From Bdellovibrionia bacterium (lineage in GTDB: Bacteria > Bdellovibrionota > Bdellovibrionia > Bdellovibrionales > JAGQZY01), in assembly GCA_030424665.1 (NCBI GenBank), contig JAUHWN010000019.1:1-39321 (forward strand): a DNA stretch of 39,321 nucleotides, written 5' to 3'. Positions 14,698-26,885 of this stretch are shown here, piece after piece; position 1 is the stretch's first letter, and each line of letters opens with the position of its first letter. The translations under genes were made by a program, and so were the position numbers. The notes below the pieces were generated by a model. That model did no database searches, was not told the DNA's origin, and saw nothing but the letters and a program-made list of their open reading frames with translations.

Positions 14698-16038
14698 ATG
14701 AAAATTGAAGAGTTAAGCCCATTTAGTTTTGCCAGACTGGGAGCGAAAGCCATTAGAGATCTCGGCGCGGGTCTCGATAGATATGTTCACGGAAAGCTCT
14801 GGCTAAAAATTCTGATTGCCCTATTTTTAGGAGTTGGAGCTGGAGTTCTACTAGGGCCGGAACTCAATTTAGTTTCTACAAAACTCTCTATATCTATAAC
14901 CACATGGATCGAGGTTCCGGGGCAGATCTTTTTAGGAATGATAAAACTTGTAGTAATTCCACTTGTTTTTGCGTCTGTTGTTCTTGGAATAATCGGCAGT
15001 GATAGCATCGACAAGTTAAAAGCCCTCGGTTTAAAAATTGGAATTTACTACGTTCTGACAACTGTTTGTGCGGTCAGCTTTGGTTTTTTTGTAGCCTACC
15101 TTATTCAGCCCGGTAACTTTATTGACACTTCTATGCTCAGTAAGCTCAAAGCTTCCGAAGAGATATCCCAGCAAATGGCCTCAGGCCCCAAGACTGCCGC
15201 CAGTGAAGTGATCGTCGGGCTCATTCCATCAAACCCCTTCAACGTCCTTGTTCATGGAGAAATGCTTCAAGTGGTTCTTCTCGCAATTTTCCTAGGTATT
15301 GCTCTCATGAGCTTAAAAAACGAAGAGGCCTCACCTCTCGTAGCTTTACTCAATACGTTTCAAAAAATTTCAATGGTCGTTATTAGCTGGGCCATGCGCC
15401 TAGCACCTATCGCAGTATTCGGGCTAACAGCAAAAATTATTTCTCAACTTGGGTATAAAGCGCTATTTGGACTTGGCGTGTATGTTTTAACTGTAATAAC
15501 TGGCTTAGCACTTCTGATGGTCTTCTATTTAGTTTTGGTCAAAACACTAGGAGGGCAGTCTATTATTGGGTTTTTAAAAAGTATCAAAGAGGTTCAACTT
15601 CTCGCCTTTTCAACTTCAAGCTCCGCAAGTGTTATGCCACTCACTATCGAAACTGCAGAAAAGAAGCTCAAAGTCAGGTCCTCGGTTTCGCAGTTTATTA
15701 TCCCTCTCGGAACAACAATAAACATGGATGGAACTGCTCTTTATCAAGGAGTTGCGACCGTCTTTCTCGCCCAAGTCTTTAAGGTTGACTTGAGTTTTGC
15801 CCAAATTGTCCTTGTTGCAGCAACTGCGACTCTTTCTTCGATAGGTGCACCAGGAACGCCTGGTGTCGGTATTGCCGTACTCGCTTCAATCCTGACTTCA
15901 GTTGGAATTCCAGCCTCTGGAGTGATGCTCATTATCGGTGTCGATCGAATACTGGATATGTGCAGGACGGTCCTTAACGTCACCGGTGACCTAACCGCCT
16001 CTGTTGTTATGAATAACTTGCAGAAAGACAAATCTTAA
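14698..16038 (+). CDS. Dicarboxylate/amino acid:cation symporter (DAACS, SLC1 fold)
   Basis: This 446-residue secondary transporter is of the GltP/DctA/GltPh family. The first helical hairpin has FSTSSSASVMPLTIETAEK, the seventh segment NMDGTALYQG and the second hairpin SSIGAPGTPGVGIA. The eighth segment has DRILDMCRTVLNVTGD. The arginine after C in that last motif aligns with the residue that binds the side-chain carboxylate in GltPh and EAATs, so glutamate, aspartate or a C4-dicarboxylate with Na+ or H+ is the likely substrate. It is single-gene, and its stop overlaps the convergent SnoaL-like gene at TTAA. Confidence 0.94.
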   Translation: MKIEELSPFSFARLGAKAIRDLGAGLDRYVHGKLWLKILIALFLGVGAGVLLGPELNLVSTKLSISITTWIEVPGQIFLGMIKLVVIPLVFASVVLGIIGSDSIDKLKALGLKIGIYYVLTTVCAVSFGFFVAYLIQPGNFIDTSMLSKLKASEEISQQMASGPKTAASEVIVGLIPSNPFNVLVHGEMLQVVLLAIFLGIALMSLKNEEASPLVALLNTFQKISMVVISWAMRLAPIAVFGLTAKIISQLGYKALFGLGVYVLTVITGLALLMVFYLVLVKTLGGQSIIGFLKSIKEVQLLAFSTSSSASVMPLTIETAEKKLKVRSSVSQFIIPLGTTINMDGTALYQGVATVFLAQVFKVDLSFAQIVLVAATATLSSIGAPGTPGVGIAVLASILTSVGIPASGVMLIIGVDRILDMCRTVLNVTGDLTASVVMNNLQKDKS

Positions 16039-16778
16039 AAGCCAAACATACCATTTGAATTAGCTAGATTTTCTTTAGGGATGTCTTGCATTACTGTCCA
16101 TTGCTCAGAGATCAGACCGTCCTTTATGCAATATAAATCATATATTGCCGAATGCTTTGATTGAAAATACCCCTCACTAATGGACAAAACGAAGTTGCCC
16201 TCTGCGAAAACCCGATGTTGCTTAAGATATTCAAGGTCACTATTTAAGGCATTTTTAACGGACTTCAATTCTGGGCCCAAAAGAGGTTGGTGACAAGTAA
16301 AGCTGTCTCCATAGAATTTATCAATAGAGTCTATTTCTCCTGTCTTTAGTTCATCATGAAGGCGACTTATTAGCGACCTGTATTCTATCTCTCTGTCGAA
16401 ATCCCCAATCTCGGTTTCACCAGCCATGGGCTTGGTCCCGGAAGGAATTTCCATCATTGCACTCCAGTGCTCCGCAATTTTATTGTTTTCATCAAAACGA
16501 ATAATATGAAAAGCTTGGATATCTTTCGCACCAAATGGAATAGCGTTTTCCCACTGATGGTGCATGATTATAAATGGGCCGTCCTGGAGTATGCGTTTAT
16601 TAATGATCTTTGATTGGTGCTTTTTTAAGATCGGTAGCACAGCAGTGAAGGGACTTCTTCCGGTCTTTAAATAAGGATTGTGTTGAATATAGTCTTCGCG
16701 AACGAGACGATTCACCAGTGGAATTTCACAATTGTTGACGGCCCCAAAGTAGGATCGGGCTATATCTTTATAGAGCAT
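16035..16778 (-). CDS. Tandem SnoaL/NTF2-like protein of the isonitrile locus
   Basis: This 247-residue protein contains two NTF2-like (SnoaL-type) modules, about 1-115 and 125-240. The first shows YIQHNPYLKTGRSPF ... RFDENNKIAEHWSAMMEIP and the second the related DSFTCHQPLLGPEL ... CIKDGLISEQWTVMQDIP. Single-domain relatives act as aldol cyclases, hydrolases, isomerases or small-molecule binders. It is the last gene of a four-gene operon with the isonitrile enzymes, 49 nt behind the monooxygenase, with SD AAGGAGAG. It may process or bind the oxidised product; no catalytic residue can be fixed with certainty. Confidence 0.8.
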   Translation of the reverse strand: MLYKDIARSYFGAVNNCEIPLVNRLVREDYIQHNPYLKTGRSPFTAVLPILKKHQSKIINKRILQDGPFIIMHHQWENAIPFGAKDIQAFHIIRFDENNKIAEHWSAMMEIPSGTKPMAGETEIGDFDREIEYRSLISRLHDELKTGEIDSIDKFYGDSFTCHQPLLGPELKSVKNALNSDLEYLKQHRVFAEGNFVLSISEGYFQSKHSAIYDLYCIKDGLISEQWTVMQDIPKENLANSNGMFGF

Positions 16779-16827
16779 TGAGATCTCTCCTTGATCAATA
16801 CAATGAAATAAAGGAATTATTCGTTAA

Positions 16828-18267
16828 CTAATCAATTTTTAAAAAAAGTGTACTTAATTCATCTATCGCGGAAACCGCCTTTATATATCCATCGGGACGC
16901 ACTAAAATCGCCTTTCCCCCATAGGTGCTTTTTTCAAAGTCACTTTTATTTTTAATGGCGTCCTCTGAAACTTGAACCAGTTTTATAGACTCGGGGACAG
17001 CAACCTCAAAGTTTTTAGCACCGAAGACTACTAGGGTGAAATTGCTGTAATCGAGTTGGCTATAGAGTCTTTTTACTCCGGTTGAACTATCAAGCTCGAA
17101 GTCAAATAGTCTTGAACCAATAAGTCCGTCATTACCATACTGGATCCCCATACCGGTGACATTACCTGCACGTTTCTCTACAATTTTGACATAGTCCTTA
17201 GCATGCTCGCCACTTTCAGAATACTTCGTCGATCGAACAAGCTCTGCTGAAGTCTCGACAACTCCAAGAGCAACCGGCTTTCGTTCTTCTTCATAGGTTC
17301 TGAGTAAACGAGCATCAGCCCCATGATTAATCACTCGACTCATTTTCCACATTAAATTAAATGAATCTGCTAACCCAGTATTTAATCCCTGCCCCCCGTT
17401 GACCGAATGAATATGGCACGAGTCACCTGCTAAAAAAACTCGATCTTCAACTATGAACTTTTCCGCAACAGACTCTTTCACCGCAAACTTAGAAGACCAT
17501 GTGATTTCTTTAAAACTTAAAGTATGAGGTGACATTGCATTGTTTATTTTTGCGATCGCCTCATCCATAGTGAATTCTTCTCGATCCATTCTGACATAGA
17601 ACCGGTCAATTGTTCCTTCTCTTGGAATCCAAGCAACATCCGAAGTCTCCGCTTGGAAAACTATAATTTCTGGAACTTTAGGAAAATCAGATTCAATGAC
17701 TCCGTCTATCACAGCCCAAATTATTTGTGGCATAGTAACTTCAAACTCAACATCGAAGAACTTTCTTACAAAGGATCGAGCCCCATCTGAACCTATAATA
17801 TACTTCGAACGTACAACTTCTCCGCTAGAAAGAGTCGTTAGGCAGTAATCCCCATGAACTTCCATGTTTTCCACAGTTGTTTGCCTACGAACCGGCTGTT
17901 CCATTTCTTTTAATTTTTTATCGACAAGGTTTTCCACATAAGATTGACCGAGCATAAGAAAGTGCTTGTGAAGACAGCCCTCTAATTGATCCCACCACTG
18001 AGATTGTCGTGACTGGAATTTTCCCTCGGCCCAAATAGAACTCGTGTTACAAGGCTTACCCAGGGGATACAACTCATCAAATAATCCAGCGATCTCCATC
18101 AGCTGTAAAGTTCGAGCATTAAGAGCATCAGCCCGACCTACCTGTAAAGGCCCATCGGACTTATCAATAGCCATAGTTTTTAATCCACAAAGCTGACCTA
18201 GGTAGGAGCACATTAGACCCACAGGGCCAGACCCGACAATGAGAACATCAGTTTCAACTTCATTCAT
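16828..18267 (-). CDS. FAD-dependent aromatic monooxygenase (PheA/TfdB-like)
   Basis: This 479-residue group A flavin monooxygenase hydroxylates phenolic or similar aromatic substrates with NAD(P)H and O2. FAD motifs are the Rossmann GSGPVG (12-17), the DG motif GSDGARSFVRK (159-169) and the GD motif LAGDSCHIHSVNGGQG (279-294). RADALNARTLQLME (45-58) is the conserved segment of the PheA/TfdB/rifampicin-monooxygenase group. The C-terminal ~100 residues look like the thioredoxin-like dimer domain. It overlaps isnB by 4 nt (ATGA), so it is co-translated with the isonitrile pair and probably hydroxylates the aryl part of that product. Confidence 0.88.
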   Translation of the reverse strand: MNEVETDVLIVGSGPVGLMCSYLGQLCGLKTMAIDKSDGPLQVGRADALNARTLQLMEIAGLFDELYPLGKPCNTSSIWAEGKFQSRQSQWWDQLEGCLHKHFLMLGQSYVENLVDKKLKEMEQPVRRQTTVENMEVHGDYCLTTLSSGEVVRSKYIIGSDGARSFVRKFFDVEFEVTMPQIIWAVIDGVIESDFPKVPEIIVFQAETSDVAWIPREGTIDRFYVRMDREEFTMDEAIAKINNAMSPHTLSFKEITWSSKFAVKESVAEKFIVEDRVFLAGDSCHIHSVNGGQGLNTGLADSFNLMWKMSRVINHGADARLLRTYEEERKPVALGVVETSAELVRSTKYSESGEHAKDYVKIVEKRAGNVTGMGIQYGNDGLIGSRLFDFELDSSTGVKRLYSQLDYSNFTLVVFGAKNFEVAVPESIKLVQVSEDAIKNKSDFEKSTYGGKAILVRPDGYIKAVSAIDELSTLFLKID

Positions 18268-19100
18268 GAATGGTACACCAAGTGAGGGTTATCTAGTTTT
18301 GGACGACCAAGTACATGGACTCTTCGCAGATGTCTCGACGAGCCGCTCGTAAATGCCTCTCTCCCGTGCAAGAGAGAGTAGTTATCTGAAATTACCACAT
18401 CACCAGTTTGCCATTGGTGGGCATAAAAGTTATCTGGGTGATAAAGAGCTTCAGTTAAACTTTGGTGAAATTCAGCAAACATTGATTCGGGCAATCCTTT
18501 AAATTCACAATTAGGATGATTAACAAAACTTTCATCCTCTGACTTCGGAAGTTCACAATATCGAATAACAGAAAATTCTCTGTGAGGATGCTTACATATA
18601 ATGGGAGCTTCGGTCTTACTGTCGTAAAACTCCATTTTTCTTTGATAAACGCCAGTTACTTTCTGCCACAATTCTAGAAGCTTTGGCGAAGCATTTTCAA
18701 TCACTCTCGGTGTCAGTGAAAAAGTAGTTCTTCCGCCCTGTTCATTCCTGGGCGCACTCACACAAGAGAAAACCTGCAATTCAGGAACCTGGGGACGATA
18801 CATACCATCCCAGTGCATGGGTACATAGTTATGATCAAATATATGATCTTCCGGGTTTTTCTGTTCGACGAGCTCAAGGACTTTTCCAAATGGCCAGAGA
18901 CTAATCTCCCCCCAATTTTCACAGTAGTCAGAAAAATCATCGGAACTTGAAAAGGAAGAAAAGCCACGCAGAACAACCAAGTGATATTGAGCAAAAAGAG
19001 GACGTAAATCTTCGATTCGAAGATCACGTACATCTTGACCCTTCGAGAGAGGCTCAATCAATAGTCCAAAAGGCTGTAGAGAAGTCTTCTTAAAGTTCAT
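18264..19100 (-). CDS. isnB: Fe(II)/2-oxoglutarate oxygenase, PvcB/IsnB-like
   Basis: This TauD/TfdA-superfamily oxygenase has 278 residues from the chosen start. Iron ligands are H96-x-D98 (PMHWDGMYRP) and distal H245 (SLLHGREAF); R257/R260 (SRHLRRVHVLGRP) are placed to bind 2-oxoglutarate. The position directly behind an isonitrile synthase identifies it as the PvcB/IsnB partner, which in characterised systems desaturates and decarboxylates the amino acid isonitrile to a vinyl isonitrile. The ATG at 19100 is preferred because the domain begins there and it overlaps isnA by 11 nt. An upstream TTG at 19139 would extend the protein by 13 residues. Confidence 0.87.
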   Translation of the reverse strand: MNFKKTSLQPFGLLIEPLSKGQDVRDLRIEDLRPLFAQYHLVVLRGFSSFSSSDDFSDYCENWGEISLWPFGKVLELVEQKNPEDHIFDHNYVPMHWDGMYRPQVPELQVFSCVSAPRNEQGGRTTFSLTPRVIENASPKLLELWQKVTGVYQRKMEFYDSKTEAPIICKHPHREFSVIRYCELPKSEDESFVNHPNCEFKGLPESMFAEFHQSLTEALYHPDNFYAHQWQTGDVVISDNYSLLHGREAFTSGSSRHLRRVHVLGRPKLDNPHLVYHS

Positions 19101-20181
19101 TACATGGATCTCTATAAATGGAATCATTATGTTGCACAAGTTCGAAATGGCTGGGCCGACCTTCAGAATCTTTTACAAGATTGGATTGTAGCTTTTCTAC
19201 TTCAAATCGCTTCATCAATGTAAATCCTTCTTCGGTTTTAACGGCGACTCCATGCCAAGGGGTCATCCAATTCTCAATACCGATCAATTGAATTCCAAAT
19301 TTTTGTGATCCACAAGACTGGGGATGAATTGATAAACGTACAGCCTGTGGAAAAACCTCTGCAAGCAAAGCACTCCACGCATTACTCCGACGAATCACTT
19401 CGTAGGCCCTTTTACGACAATCCTTTTGAATCGCTGTCCGACTTTTAGATTGCCCCGGAAAGGATAAATCCTCTACTAGAAAACGAGTCATTCCACAGTA
19501 GAGACGGTTTAGTTCATTCTCTTCATCTGTTGAATTTTCTTGGGCACCAGCCTTTACTTTTCTTCTTAAGATTTCGAGCGATTGACCGTACTCTTCCATA
19601 AGATCGATTCGCAATTCATCAAAACTCTTAATCTCACAAACCTGATCGAGGTTGAAGGTCGACAAATTCGTTAGATTTAACTCTTCAATTATCTTATCGA
19701 GTTCAATTTGATATTGAGTGATATCTTCTTCTGGAATTTGCACAACATCACTAAAAACCCTTCCATCGGAACAAAGAATAATATGAGCTCCTGGCGCATA
19801 CACCTCTTTAATTTGCTCACAAAGCTCGTGTAAAAATTGAAGGGACAGGCGTTCAGCCATATCGGGGTTGGCTCCTAATACTTTAGCGAGATTGGGAGAC
19901 TTCCCCGGAAATGCCGGCAGCACAAATTGAATGACTTGGTTTTGTGCTACTGCCGATTGGACCTTTTTAATATGTGGAGCCATGCAAGTAGGGCAAGCAG
20001 AGTTTCGGCAAGATTCGTGACCTCGAACCACTCTTCGAAAAGGCATCAGTTTTTTTAAAATTTCTGTTGCTGGAGTTTTCAAAATTCTAAGATCAAATGC
20101 ACCGAGCTCCCGATTGGACTGAGAATGGACTTCAACTTGGTTATTCAAATTGGCGGCGTGAGCTTGCTCTAATACTTTCAT
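19090..20181 (-). CDS. isnA: Isonitrile synthase, PvcA/IsnA/DIT1 family
   Basis: This enzyme converts an amino acid amine (Tyr or Trp in known cases) to an isonitrile, taking the carbon from ribulose-5-phosphate. Family blocks are LPAFPGKSPN (88-97), PDMAE (106-110), CSDGRVFSDV (137-146), HPQSCGSQKFGIQL (286-299) and TPWHGV (307-312). A CRNSACPTCMAPH cysteine cluster (58-70) precedes the first block. ATG 20181 (363 residues) is preferred because AAAAGGGG lies 6 nt upstream. An in-frame ATG at 20289 would add 36 residues unlike the family, has no SD and would sit in an inverted repeat. It heads the operon isnA-isnB-monooxygenase-SnoaL. Substrate is not determinable from sequence. Confidence 0.9.
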   Translation of the reverse strand: MKVLEQAHAANLNNQVEVHSQSNRELGAFDLRILKTPATEILKKLMPFRRVVRGHESCRNSACPTCMAPHIKKVQSAVAQNQVIQFVLPAFPGKSPNLAKVLGANPDMAERLSLQFLHELCEQIKEVYAPGAHIILCSDGRVFSDVVQIPEEDITQYQIELDKIIEELNLTNLSTFNLDQVCEIKSFDELRIDLMEEYGQSLEILRRKVKAGAQENSTDEENELNRLYCGMTRFLVEDLSFPGQSKSRTAIQKDCRKRAYEVIRRSNAWSALLAEVFPQAVRLSIHPQSCGSQKFGIQLIGIENWMTPWHGVAVKTEEGFTLMKRFEVEKLQSNLVKDSEGRPSHFELVQHNDSIYRDPCNEL

Positions 20182-20287: not shown

Positions 20288-20302
20288 ATAGGTGAAACCT
20301 AT
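20288..20302. promoter_or_regulatory. Perfect inverted repeat upstream of isnA
   Basis: ATAGGT-GAA-ACCTAT is a perfect 6-3-6 dyad about 107 nt upstream of the preferred isnA start. Its symmetry and its place in a divergent spacer fit a dimeric repressor or activator operator, but no regulator is identified. Confidence 0.4.
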
Positions 20303-23265: not shown

Positions 23266-24675
23266 ATGAAAAACTTTCTATTATTTTTTTTAATTCAATA
23301 TACCTCTCTCTTCGCCTCGGGACTCGACCTAGCGCCAATGAATTACTATCACGTAAAGACAAAGGGATCCAAACAAATACACTTTGATAATCAAGCTCTT
23401 ACAAATGCTGATTACGAGAGCTTTAAAACCTTATTGCCCTCTGATAATTTTGCGAGAGACAAAAACAACTTGTACTTTAAAGGTCATAAAATTACTGGCC
23501 TCGATCGGAAAAATTTTAAAGCCTACTCAAACTACCTAGGGAGTGATGGGTCAAATCTCATCCTACTAAATTCCACTAAAAATCCCCCTTTCGAGAAAAT
23601 ATCCAAAAAAGCATTTCAAAAACTATCCAGCCACTTTTTCAAAGACGACTCTAACATCTACTTTTTGCGTATAAAAAACACAAACAATGGTCCGATGACA
23701 AAAACAGTTCTTCAAAAAGTTAAGGGAGCAAAAAGTAGGGAATTTAGAATTCTATTCGAAGAGGATCGTCCCATAGATGATCCAGGCACGATAATTGGCA
23801 GAGACAATAATAATATCTATCTTGGCGGAAAGGCCGTCCTCAAGATCGATCCAAAAAGTGAAGTGAGAATTATAAAGAGGAATCCTGCCTTTGGCGTTTA
23901 CCTTGTTATTGGTAAACAGCTTCACTATTTTAATAAAGTGAACCATATCCAAGTTAAAAAGGCAGTACCCAAACACCTCAAATTCATAAATGATGCTTTT
24001 CTTTCAGATGGCATCTCGCTCTTTAAGGCAGGACAAAGAGTGCCACTTAAATACAAAGCGAGCCAAACTATTAAGGCGAATTCCCTTAATATCATCGAAG
24101 AGGTCTGGGGGATCCACAAAGATTCAGTATTTTACCTGGGTAATTCAAAAATTGAAGAGTTTACCGGAGTGAACACCATATCTTTCAAAATACTTAGAAA
24201 CTATTGTAAACACGGGATTGGTTGTATTCACCTGGCCAAGGACACAAAAAGCTATTTCTACGGACCTAAGAAGTATGCGATCAAACCCCTTGATCCCACT
24301 ATGAAGTATGTCCTAGAAAAGCTACCCGATCTAAGGAGAGCCGTGTTCTATCCGGGCACTGGAATTCAAGTAAAAGAAGCCGATCCAGAAACATTCAAGG
24401 TGTTTAAGGAGGGATACGCAAAGGATCATAAAAACTTTTTTTATTACGGTCAAAAAATAGTACCCAAGGTGAATGCGAAAACTTTTAGGGTTATTGGCTA
24501 TGGTTTCGCTAAAGATGCCCAAAGAGTTTACGTCAATGGCCAATGGATAAAACAAGCTGATGCCAAGACATTCAAAAGGGTACCTCCTAAATTTGGATTA
24601 CTTTCTCATTCTTCAGAAAAAATTTGGAGCGACAAAAACTATAGATTTGATCAGAATGGAAAAATTGTTAATTAA
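23266..24675 (+). CDS. Exported DKNYY-family repeat protein
   Basis: This 469-residue protein has a signal peptide (MKNFLLFFLIQYTSLFASG), so it is exported to the periplasm or surface. The mature part contains repeated DKNxxYxxG-type units such as DKNNLYFKGHKI, DDSNIYFL, DNNNIYLGGKAV, DHKNFFYYGQKI and DAQRVYVNGQWI, the pattern of the DKNYY family. These units probably stack into a beta-rich fold for ligand or surface binding; function is unknown. SD AGAGGG precedes the ATG. The stop overlaps the convergent LysR remnant at TTAA. Confidence 0.8.
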   Translation: MKNFLLFFLIQYTSLFASGLDLAPMNYYHVKTKGSKQIHFDNQALTNADYESFKTLLPSDNFARDKNNLYFKGHKITGLDRKNFKAYSNYLGSDGSNLILLNSTKNPPFEKISKKAFQKLSSHFFKDDSNIYFLRIKNTNNGPMTKTVLQKVKGAKSREFRILFEEDRPIDDPGTIIGRDNNNIYLGGKAVLKIDPKSEVRIIKRNPAFGVYLVIGKQLHYFNKVNHIQVKKAVPKHLKFINDAFLSDGISLFKAGQRVPLKYKASQTIKANSLNIIEEVWGIHKDSVFYLGNSKIEEFTGVNTISFKILRNYCKHGIGCIHLAKDTKSYFYGPKKYAIKPLDPTMKYVLEKLPDLRRAVFYPGTGIQVKEADPETFKVFKEGYAKDHKNFFYYGQKIVPKVNAKTFRVIGYGFAKDAQRVYVNGQWIKQADAKTFKRVPPKFGLLSHSSEKIWSDKNYRFDQNGKIVN

Positions 24676-25539
24676 CTTAAATGCCGCAACGTATTCGCGA
24701 TTTTTCTAAATACTGGGTGCTCGATATCTGATTTTCTTTTCATAATATATACTGATTGCTTGTCGCCCTTGACTCCCCTCGGACTTTTTATCTCTGATAA
24801 GCGAAATTGGGATTTTACTTGTTCGTTATGCAGATCCACGACAAATCGAGGCAAATAAGCGACAGCCACACCCTTTCGACAAAACTCCATTGCCGTTTCC
24901 ATCAACTCAACCTGGTACTTAATATTTCGGGGAATCTTATCATCCGGCCAACCATCGAGACCCTTTACTTTATGGGGCACCCTCTATGGGAGTCACCGGT
25001 ACTACGAATGGTAAGTCTGAAAAATTATTCTCCCCATAGGTCCTACCTTTACCGAAGATACCCATTCCAATTGTTCCTACTTTAATGAATTCTAGATCCT
25101 TATTGGGTATGGGCAAGTAAGTGATTCCTATGTCTATTTTTCCTAGTGAAATTTGCTCTTCGAGATGTCCTGGGGTTAATTCTCGAATTTGTATTTGATA
25201 GTCTTCTAAAGATTCAGAAACGAGACGTCCCATAAAGTAGGTCGTGAATACTTCAAATGATCCAATTCTAATGGACTGCTCCTCATAGGAACTCTGCTCA
25301 TTTGTAATCTCTTCAAGTTCTCGAATTAACTTTTTTGCTTTTTCTGCAATTACTTTAGCTCGATCTGTAAAAAGGAGCCGTCGCCCCGAGTGAACGAAAA
25401 GCTGAACTCCAAGTTCTTCCTCTAGTAATTTCATGGCCTTAGAAAGTGCCGGCTGGGAGATATACAAGTGCTCTGCAGCTTCTCGCATGGTCTCTGAATT
25501 ATAAAGCACGGTAAAATATCTAAGTCGATCTATATCCAT
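24672..25539 (-). pseudogene. LysR-type regulator broken by a +1 frameshift
   Basis: This is a LysR-family transcription factor in two frames. The first part (25539 to 24970) has the full winged helix (FTVLYNSETMREAAEHLYISQPALSKAMKLLEEELG) and half the effector domain. It stops after PVTPIEGAP. The rest (KVKGLDGWPDD ... GVAVAYLPRFVV ... NTLRHLS) continues in another frame to 24672. Removing one G from the GGGG run at 24974-24977 (CCCC on the coding strand) restores a continuous ~288-residue protein of normal LysR length. It may be a real inactivation or a sequencing error. It lies divergent from the P450-terpene operon and would be its obvious regulator. Confidence 0.8.
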
Positions 25540-25613
25540 AAGTTAACTAAATATAACTATTATTCACTTTTATTCAAGTTTATATTTTGCGAGATTGTCG
25601 CCAGGAGGCACTT
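25540..25613. promoter_or_regulatory. Divergent LysR / P450 control region
   Basis: This very A+T-rich 74-nt spacer has the palindrome AGTTAACT (25541-25548) next to the LysR start. A longer dyad ATATAA (25551-25556) ... TTATAT (25580-25585) spans it, and TATATT (25581-25586) is a candidate -10 for the P450 gene. The layout fits LysR autoregulation with divergent control of the operon. Confidence 0.42.
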
Positions 25614-26885
25614 ATGCTGGCGCTTATAAAAAATTCAACTGATTCAATAAAAACCCTTATTGATTTTCAAAAAAACCCCTATCTCTTTTTTGATCAGGTA
25701 AAACCAAACGATCTATCCCATATCAAGTATTTGAATATGGGTTTTAAGAACTTTTATTTCTGCTACCATCCAGATCACGCAAAACATATTTTACAAGACA
25801 ACAAAGAAAATTACCCAAAGTCAGATTTAGTTCTCAAAAAAATTCTACCTCTATCCGGTCCGACTGGCTTGATACAACTTAAAGACAAAAAGGCTAAATC
25901 CGTCAGGCAATCCTCTGGCCACCTTATGCATCCTGATCGAGCCAAAAGACTCAGTGAATACGTTAGTTCCTTTGTCGAAGAAGAGTTTGATCGACTCGAC
26001 CAGGCTGCTCAGACTGGAGAAGTGGTTGATCTAAAAGACTTTCTTACCCAGCTTGTATTACGGACGGCAGGTATATTTATTCTGAACAAGGATGTTCAGG
26101 GTCAGGCCGACGATCTTAATGAGGCCTTCGTAGAACTGAATCGAATGGCTGGAGAGTCTTTACGAAGCCTCTTCACCTTTCCCTACTCCCCTAAGAGAAA
26201 TAAATACCTTAAAGTGATTCACCAAGAATTGGATAAAATTATCGATGAACAGCTGCAAAGCAATGACACATCTCTTCTACATGAACTCAACAAAAAAAAT
26301 TATCCAAGATGCTTTATTCGTGATCAAGTTAAGGCATTTATGTTTGCTGGCTATGACACGACAGCATCTTCACTTATCTTCGCTGTCGACTCAGTTGCTC
26401 GATGTAGAAAAAGCCAAAATGGCATCTTTTCTGAAAAAAAACTCGGTTATAGAGAAGCCGAGTTTACTCAAGCTGCCTATAAAGAATCTCTCCGTCTCTA
26501 TCCATCGGCCTATTTTTTACCGCGGCAGTCAATTGAAGACGACATTATCAGAGACCAAAAGATAATGGCAGGAAGCCAACTCTTTATAAGTATTCGTCAC
26601 GTTCAACGCTGCCCCGAAGTTTTCGAAAAACCAGATCAATTCATACCAGAACGGTTTCTTGAGAAACTGAAGCACAGTCACGGTTTCATTCCTTTTGGCG
26701 GCGGAGCTCGAATCTGTATCGGCGCTCCACTCGCAATAATGGAAGCCACTGTGGTATTACAAAAACTCTGCGAACGCTACGAATTCGAGGCAGCAAAAGA
26801 AACCCCACCAGAAATTGAAGGACTCATAACTGCCCACACCAAATCACCCTTATATTTGCGGTTAAAACGGAGGTCATCATGCTAA
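25614..26885 (+). CDS. Cytochrome P450
   Basis: This 423-residue soluble heme monooxygenase is complete in its key motifs. The I-helix is AGYDTT (245-250), the K-helix ExxR is E291-R294 (KESLRLYP), and the heme loop is FIPFGGGARICIG with thiolate Cys368. There is no N-terminal membrane anchor, so it is a bacterial cytosolic type needing separate redox partners, none of which lie nearby. ATG 25614 is chosen because a perfect AGGAGG sits 5 nt upstream; the TTG at 25587 lacks this. The 7-nt overlap with the terpene synthase gene implies that it oxidises the terpene product. Confidence 0.93.
   Translation: MLALIKNSTDSIKTLIDFQKNPYLFFDQVKPNDLSHIKYLNMGFKNFYFCYHPDHAKHILQDNKENYPKSDLVLKKILPLSGPTGLIQLKDKKAKSVRQSSGHLMHPDRAKRLSEYVSSFVEEEFDRLDQAAQTGEVVDLKDFLTQLVLRTAGIFILNKDVQGQADDLNEAFVELNRMAGESLRSLFTFPYSPKRNKYLKVIHQELDKIIDEQLQSNDTSLLHELNKKNYPRCFIRDQVKAFMFAGYDTTASSLIFAVDSVARCRKSQNGIFSEKKLGYREAEFTQAAYKESLRLYPSAYFLPRQSIEDDIIRDQKIMAGSQLFISIRHVQRCPEVFEKPDQFIPERFLEKLKHSHGFIPFGGGARICIGAPLAIMEATVVLQKLCERYEFEAAKETPPEIEGLITAHTKSPLYLRLKRRSSC

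Follow-up and report, generated by a model that had tools for sequence, protein, structure and literature searches.

The DNA analysed is a window of 39,321 nt from Bdellovibrionia contig JAUHWN010000019.1 (GCA_030424665.1), to whose whole length all coordinates refer; its source bacterium is a relative of the predator Bdellovibrio. Along the minus strand, from 20181 down to 16035, four genes run in the order isnA, isnB, FAD hydroxylase and SnoaL-like gene, and form an operon that is both real and conserved:

19090-20181, minus strand: isnA, isonitrile synthase, 363 aa (PF05141, PvcA and PIsnA matches, fold match, start backed by dN/dS)
19090-19100, minus strand: isnA/isnB overlap, 11 nt (from the ORF coordinates)
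18264-19100, minus strand: isnB, Fe/2-oxoglutarate desaturase, 278 aa (PvcB and PIsnB matches, residue comparison)
18264-18267, minus strand: isnB/FAD hydroxylase overlap, 4 nt (from the ORF coordinates)
16828-18267, minus strand: PheA/TfdB-type FAD phenol hydroxylase, 479 aa, NCBIfam NF005531 (PRK07190) (826 bits, conserved triad)
16035-16778, minus strand: two-domain SnoaL/NTF2-like protein, 247 aa, of the isn-linked clade (SnoaL_2, predicted fold, clade, signature residues)

The gene boundaries and both overlaps proposed in an earlier sequence-only reading match the minus-strand open reading frames exactly, and the identities it gave to the four products are confirmed by domain families and structure matches. 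The isnA ATG at 20181 is preceded by a ribosome-binding-like AAGGGG, while the SnoaL gene follows the FAD hydroxylase after a gap of 49 nt and has a ribosome-binding-like site of its own (AAGGAG). Comparison with a genome of the same genus (G001) gives dN/dS values of 0.06 for isnA, 0.06 for isnB, 0.07 for the FAD hydroxylase and 0.15 for SnoaL, so that purifying selection is acting on all four genes. An alternative isnA start at 20289 was rejected, and 20181 retained, because the 36 extra in-frame codons show a non-coding-like dN/dS of 0.72, against 0.06 for the gene itself. The SDF transporter gene at 14698-16038 on the plus strand is convergent with the SnoaL gene, their ends overlapping by 4 nt, and therefore lies outside the operon; it was rejected as a cluster member on account of its strand and because it is unlinked at the other loci.

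IsnA scores 266.9 bits against PF05141 (curated cut-off 26.4), contains all of the conserved motifs PAFPxKSPN, SDGxxF, RLSIHPQ and TPWH in alignments, and aligns over nearly its full length with PvcA (3e59, E 3e-75) and PIsnA (9dh4, E 2e-69). Its predicted structure (pLDDT 88) matches the PvcA fold with E 1.7e-33. The sequence-only reading had named a phylogeny among the tests that could refute it, and when the tree was built IsnA stayed within the isonitrile synthase clade, with PvcA and PIsnA nested among its relatives. Against the strict PvcA equivalog model TyIsonSynPvcA of NCBIfam it reaches 285.8 bits, below the 600-bit cut-off, and it is therefore a PvcA homologue rather than a PvcA orthologue. 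IsnB scores 153 bits against TauD, is similarly related to PvcB (3eat, E 2e-90) and PIsnB (7tcl, E 2e-76), again nearly full-length, and keeps the H-x-D...H iron ligands and the substrate-binding Arg265 that characterise these desaturases.

The third protein scores 826 bits against NF005531 (cut-off 530), a family labelled simply 'FAD-binding protein', and is related to phenol hydroxylase, with a FAD_binding_3 domain (218.6 bits) followed by Rng_hyd_C. Its D47, R216 and Y224 align with the catalytic residues D54, R281 and Y289 of phenol hydroxylase, and are invariant in 82-84 relatives. The combination of FAD_binding_3 and this Asp/Arg/Tyr triad is that of the PheA/TfdB group A flavin phenol hydroxylases, and the retention of the triad in all relatives fits a phenol, that is, a tyrosine-derived substrate.

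A scan of public genomes for the FAD protein, taking one genome per species, found at least 80 loci in many phyla, with hosts including Legionella, Vibrio, Burkholderia, Pectobacterium, Aquimarina, Flavivirga, Chryseobacterium, Crossiella, Obscuribacterales, Uabimicrobium and Bdellovibrionota. Among the matches listed, isnB adjoins the FAD gene in 77 of 80 loci, the other three being cut by contig ends that fall inside or beside the FAD gene, and in most FAD-type loci isnA stands ahead of isnB. The gene make-up bears out the earlier reading of an isonitrile operon, but the isnA-isnB-FAD core is widespread and in no way special to the genome of the window. The NF005531 family, without known function, is now tied to isonitrile clusters across many phyla.

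In several Vibrio and in Marinomonas (L030, L038, L050, L073, L075, L082, L090) isnB and the FAD gene are followed by a protein of 580-665 aa in which an IsnA-like part is fused to a weakly TauD-like half; in L030 this protein has HWN in place of the iron-ligand motif HWD, perhaps marking an inactive desaturase domain. Two Pectobacterium loci (L070, L071) have, as judged by sequence, acyl-adenylating-enzyme-like, MBOAT-like and SGNH-like genes before isnB-FAD and an IsnB of the PvcB type (L/C), and the IsnA search found no isnA there. Single ORFs of 900 aa (L041:7986-10688) and 789 aa (L049) contain both the FAD hydroxylase and an ATP-grasp enzyme, which suggests fusion and a direct cooperation of the two.

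Within the Bdellovibrionota, IsnA occurs in 43 of 369 genomes, divided into a FAD type and a P450 type, so that these predatory and related bacteria carry two distinct kinds of isonitrile cluster. The isnA-isnB-P450 type (L022, L164, L171, L173, L176-L178, L181-L184, L189) sometimes includes a glycosyltransferase and often a LysR gene. In a published survey of Legionella (PMC5126622), isnAB is mentioned in the company of a P450 and a helix-turn-helix protein; the Legionella loci of the present scan have FAD, MFS and ATP-grasp genes instead. The window itself has a cytochrome P450 gene (PF00067, 175 bits) at 25587-26885 on the plus strand, about 5.3 kb from isnA, for which a tie to the isn operon is possible by analogy with the P450 and helix-turn-helix genes of that survey. 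It diverges from a LysR regulator gene at 24672-25539 (minus strand) in which an apparent frameshift, either a real mutation or an assembly error, breaks the coding sequence into two overlapping ORFs; in G001 the same gene is a single ORF of 289 aa (L014:2903-3772).

The IsnA of the window carries near its N-terminus, at residues 58-70, a C-x4-C-x2-C-x3-H motif. The C-x4-C-x2-C portion, usually with the x3-H after it, is found in 61 of 72 IsnAs that adjoin a FAD gene, or 61 of 65 if the fusion type is set aside; outside the Bdellovibrionota the wider sampling of IsnA covered the FAD-linked loci and 14 plasmid records. Among Bdellovibrionota the motif is present in 23 of 24 FAD-type loci and in 0 of 13 of the P450 type, and alignment shows it to be absent from PvcA and PIsnA as well as from the P450-linked IsnAs of that phylum. 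The motif may plausibly be a metal site.

These findings lead us to read the four genes, with a probability of about 65%, as an isonitrile biosynthesis operon in which tyrosine would be converted to an isonitrile, desaturated, hydroxylated on the ring and finally processed by the SnoaL-like protein. In the first step IsnA would use ribulose-5-phosphate to convert the amino group of an aromatic amino acid, of which L-tyrosine is the likeliest, into an isonitrile; IsnB would follow by desaturating the side chain, with either a vinyl isonitrile or an isocyanoacrylate as the result. Hydroxylation of the phenol ring would then fall to the FAD enzyme, which would thereby yield an unsaturated isonitrile of the catechol type and fill, from another enzyme family, the role of PvcC in Pseudomonas. 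For the final step the SnoaL-like protein would stand where sister clusters have an ATP-grasp enzyme, and would most probably cyclise, isomerise or hydrolyse the oxidised ring product. The first three steps draw on family knowledge and conserved catalytic residues, the SnoaL step on fold and position only. The sequence comparisons establish gene identities, catalytic residues and co-inheritance; the substrate, the order of the steps, the SnoaL reaction and the product are inferred. The likeliest product class is that of hydroxylated aryl isonitriles, and the compound could be either a vinyl isonitrile with a catechol ring or a coumarin resembling paerucumarin.

The residues of IsnB bear on the choice between these two products. 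In PIsnB numbering, K or R at 107 with N or H at 188 predicts a vinyl isonitrile, and L107 with C188 an isocyanoacrylate (PMC9467999). The window enzyme has a mixed signature, with R107 of the vinyl type and C188 of the acrylate type, so that the rule favours neither product. C188 occurs in 11 of 13 SnoaL-bearing loci as against 2 of 58 tree rows without SnoaL, and PvcB-type enzymes retain the carboxylate (PMC9467999); since cyclases are also known among SnoaL-fold proteins, the carboxylate might be kept in an isocyanoacrylate on which SnoaL closes a lactone, giving a paerucumarin-like isocyano-dihydroxycoumarin by way of different enzymes. We think this somewhat unlikely, for the second predictor position holds the vinyl-type Arg, single-site swaps left the selectivity of PIsnB-Ah unaltered (PMC9467999), and Asn is found at 188 in two loci despite the presence of SnoaL (L072, and L094 paired with L100 from the same MAG). 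The link between Cys and SnoaL may, moreover, be one inherited event: on the concatenated tree 4 changes suffice for SnoaL and 3 for C188, and the AU test (p 0.116) does not reject a single origin for all loci with SnoaL. The association was not accepted as functional proof because of the few events on the tree and the 2 to 4 pairs available to an independent-pairs test; it is a lead on the product that may trace to few evolutionary events.

The SnoaL gene adjoins the core in the genus of the window, in four other Bdellovibrionota genomes (G048, G172, G273, G368), in Aquimarina, Flavivirga and other Flavobacteria, and in one lake proteobacterium. Because it recurs beside isnA-isnB-FAD in such distant bacteria, it is a true component of the cluster, and on this point the genome-neighbourhood comparison upholds the sequence-only reading. 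Carriers of this SnoaL clade make up 7 of the 369 Bdellovibrionota genomes and all fall within the 43 that have isnA (p 1.8e-7, a value that ignores shared ancestry); in six of the seven SnoaL is adjacent to the isn genes and in the seventh (G227) it lies at the end of a short contig. The linked proteins form one clade (support 99/99) apart from unlinked tandem SnoaL proteins, and the clade occurs almost only beside isonitrile clusters. Private to its first domain are H74, W76 and H91, where the unlinked proteins have T/S/A, Y (with one gap) and D/E; the His and Trp residues of interest in the window protein are H33, H74, W76, H91 and H104. Since several members (L039, L072, L094, L175) have a shortened domain 2, domain 1 is, from sequence comparison, probably the active one.

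Most FAD-type clusters have no SnoaL, which is therefore dispensable for the core pathway, and in Aquimarina aquimarini and Flavivirga the gene lies on the opposite strand. These facts, along with the 49-nt gap and separate ribosome-binding-like site in the window, would suit a protein that is no pathway enzyme and serves the producer by binding the product or rendering it harmless. This we regard as unlikely, given that SnoaL alternates in position with the ATP-grasp gene, a tailoring-type gene, and that its clade-specific residues look catalytic. Downstream sequence is long enough for this comparison in 74 loci: SnoaL is present in 11 of them and ATP-grasp in 24 of the remaining 63, while no locus has both (Fisher p 0.013, again ignoring shared ancestry).

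The SnoaL protein scores 32 bits against SnoaL_2 and 27.5 against the SnoaL Pfam model, slightly below the cut-off of 28.4, and is predicted to fold as two NTF2-like domains (pLDDT 90.5). Foldseek ranks the tandem epoxide hydrolases Lsd19 and MonBI/MonBII highest among matches to the model, and Lsd18, the partner of Lsd19 in lasalocid biosynthesis, is a flavin epoxidase. By analogy, the FAD enzyme could epoxidise a vinyl isonitrile and the tandem SnoaL open or cyclise the epoxide. We consider this distinctly improbable: the whole-chain match to Lsd19-type proteins is poor (TM 0.40, rmsd ~16 A) and rests on the possession of two NTF2 domains, the single domains match structures of many different functions, and the phenol hydroxylase triad of the FAD enzyme is intact. 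No polyketide synthase genes are seen beside the SnoaL gene among the ORFs of the window. The sequence-only reading knew of no characterised pathway with a double SnoaL protein, but outside isonitriles tandem SnoaL-fold enzymes have a characterised precedent in Lsd19 of lasalocid. Nor did that reading note the IsnA Cys motif, the two types of signature residue combined in IsnB, or the way SnoaL and ATP-grasp alternate. Lastly, it is very unlikely that IsnA uses tryptophan or yields N-formyl-type products as proposed for fungal Dit1, for although Trp-using and Dit1-type proteins are found within PF05141 (PMC4236562, PMC7345447), the closest characterised relatives are tyrosine enzymes and the partners present are a phenol-type FAD enzyme and the Fe/2OG enzyme IsnB.

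We tentatively raise a further possibility, that the SnoaL proteins of the isn-linked clade are a new kind of enzyme for tailoring isonitriles, whose His-rich NTF2 cavity (H33, H74, H91, H104) would cyclise or rearrange a catechol or quinone isonitrile, or bind it via a metal, and that the Cys3(His) of IsnA is a metal site undescribed for isonitrile synthases. If true, the two together would set such pathways apart as a class of their own among bacterial isonitrile routes, with a new scaffold. Isonitriles serve as metal binders, antibiotics, virulence aids and signals, and few of their bacterial pathways have been solved. The IsnA Cys motif and SnoaL H74/W76/H91 offer two sequence markers for finding further clusters, and the operon, with its four genes, is a compact system in which to study how isonitriles can be tailored by a protein of the SnoaL fold.

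Among characterised systems, Lsd19, the epoxide hydrolase/cyclase of lasalocid, shares two NTF2-like domains per chain with the window protein, but at 15% identity, with another domain arrangement and in a polyether pathway. The isnA-isnB-P450 clusters of other Bdellovibrionota (e.g. L022) have the same IsnA/IsnB pair in the same phylum, but a P450, sometimes with a glycosyltransferase, replaces the FAD enzyme, and there is neither Cys motif nor SnoaL. The isnAB/rhabduscin system of Photorhabdus and Xenorhabdus has homologues of both IsnA and IsnB and, like the window, a positive residue at PIsnB K107 (Arg here, Lys in PIsnB); the window differs in having no glycosyltransferase, in its FAD hydroxylase and SnoaL, and in the Cys at 188. 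With pvcABCD of Pseudomonas aeruginosa, which makes paerucumarin, the operon has in common an isonitrile synthase, its Fe/2OG partner and ring hydroxylation. PvcC is, however, a different type of hydroxylase from the single-component PheA/TfdB flavoproteins, whereas the window enzyme belongs to the latter (FAD_binding_3) and no PvcC-type hydroxylase stands beside the isnA-isnB pair; the window also adds SnoaL, the Cys motif of IsnA and the mixed signature of IsnB. The pvcABCD genes are a single transcript (PMC3639982).

In the open-access literature we found no description of SnoaL, the NF005531 FAD family or ATP-grasp together with an isonitrile synthase, and no product for the isnA-isnB-FAD(-MFS-ATP-grasp) loci of Legionella, Gammaproteobacteria and Obscuribacterales. 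These loci share with the window the three-gene core, the Cys-motif IsnA and, often, overlapping genes, and differ in having ATP-grasp and MFS where the window has SnoaL. FAD-linked isonitrile clusters are a widespread and unstudied class, and the SnoaL version is a variant within it.
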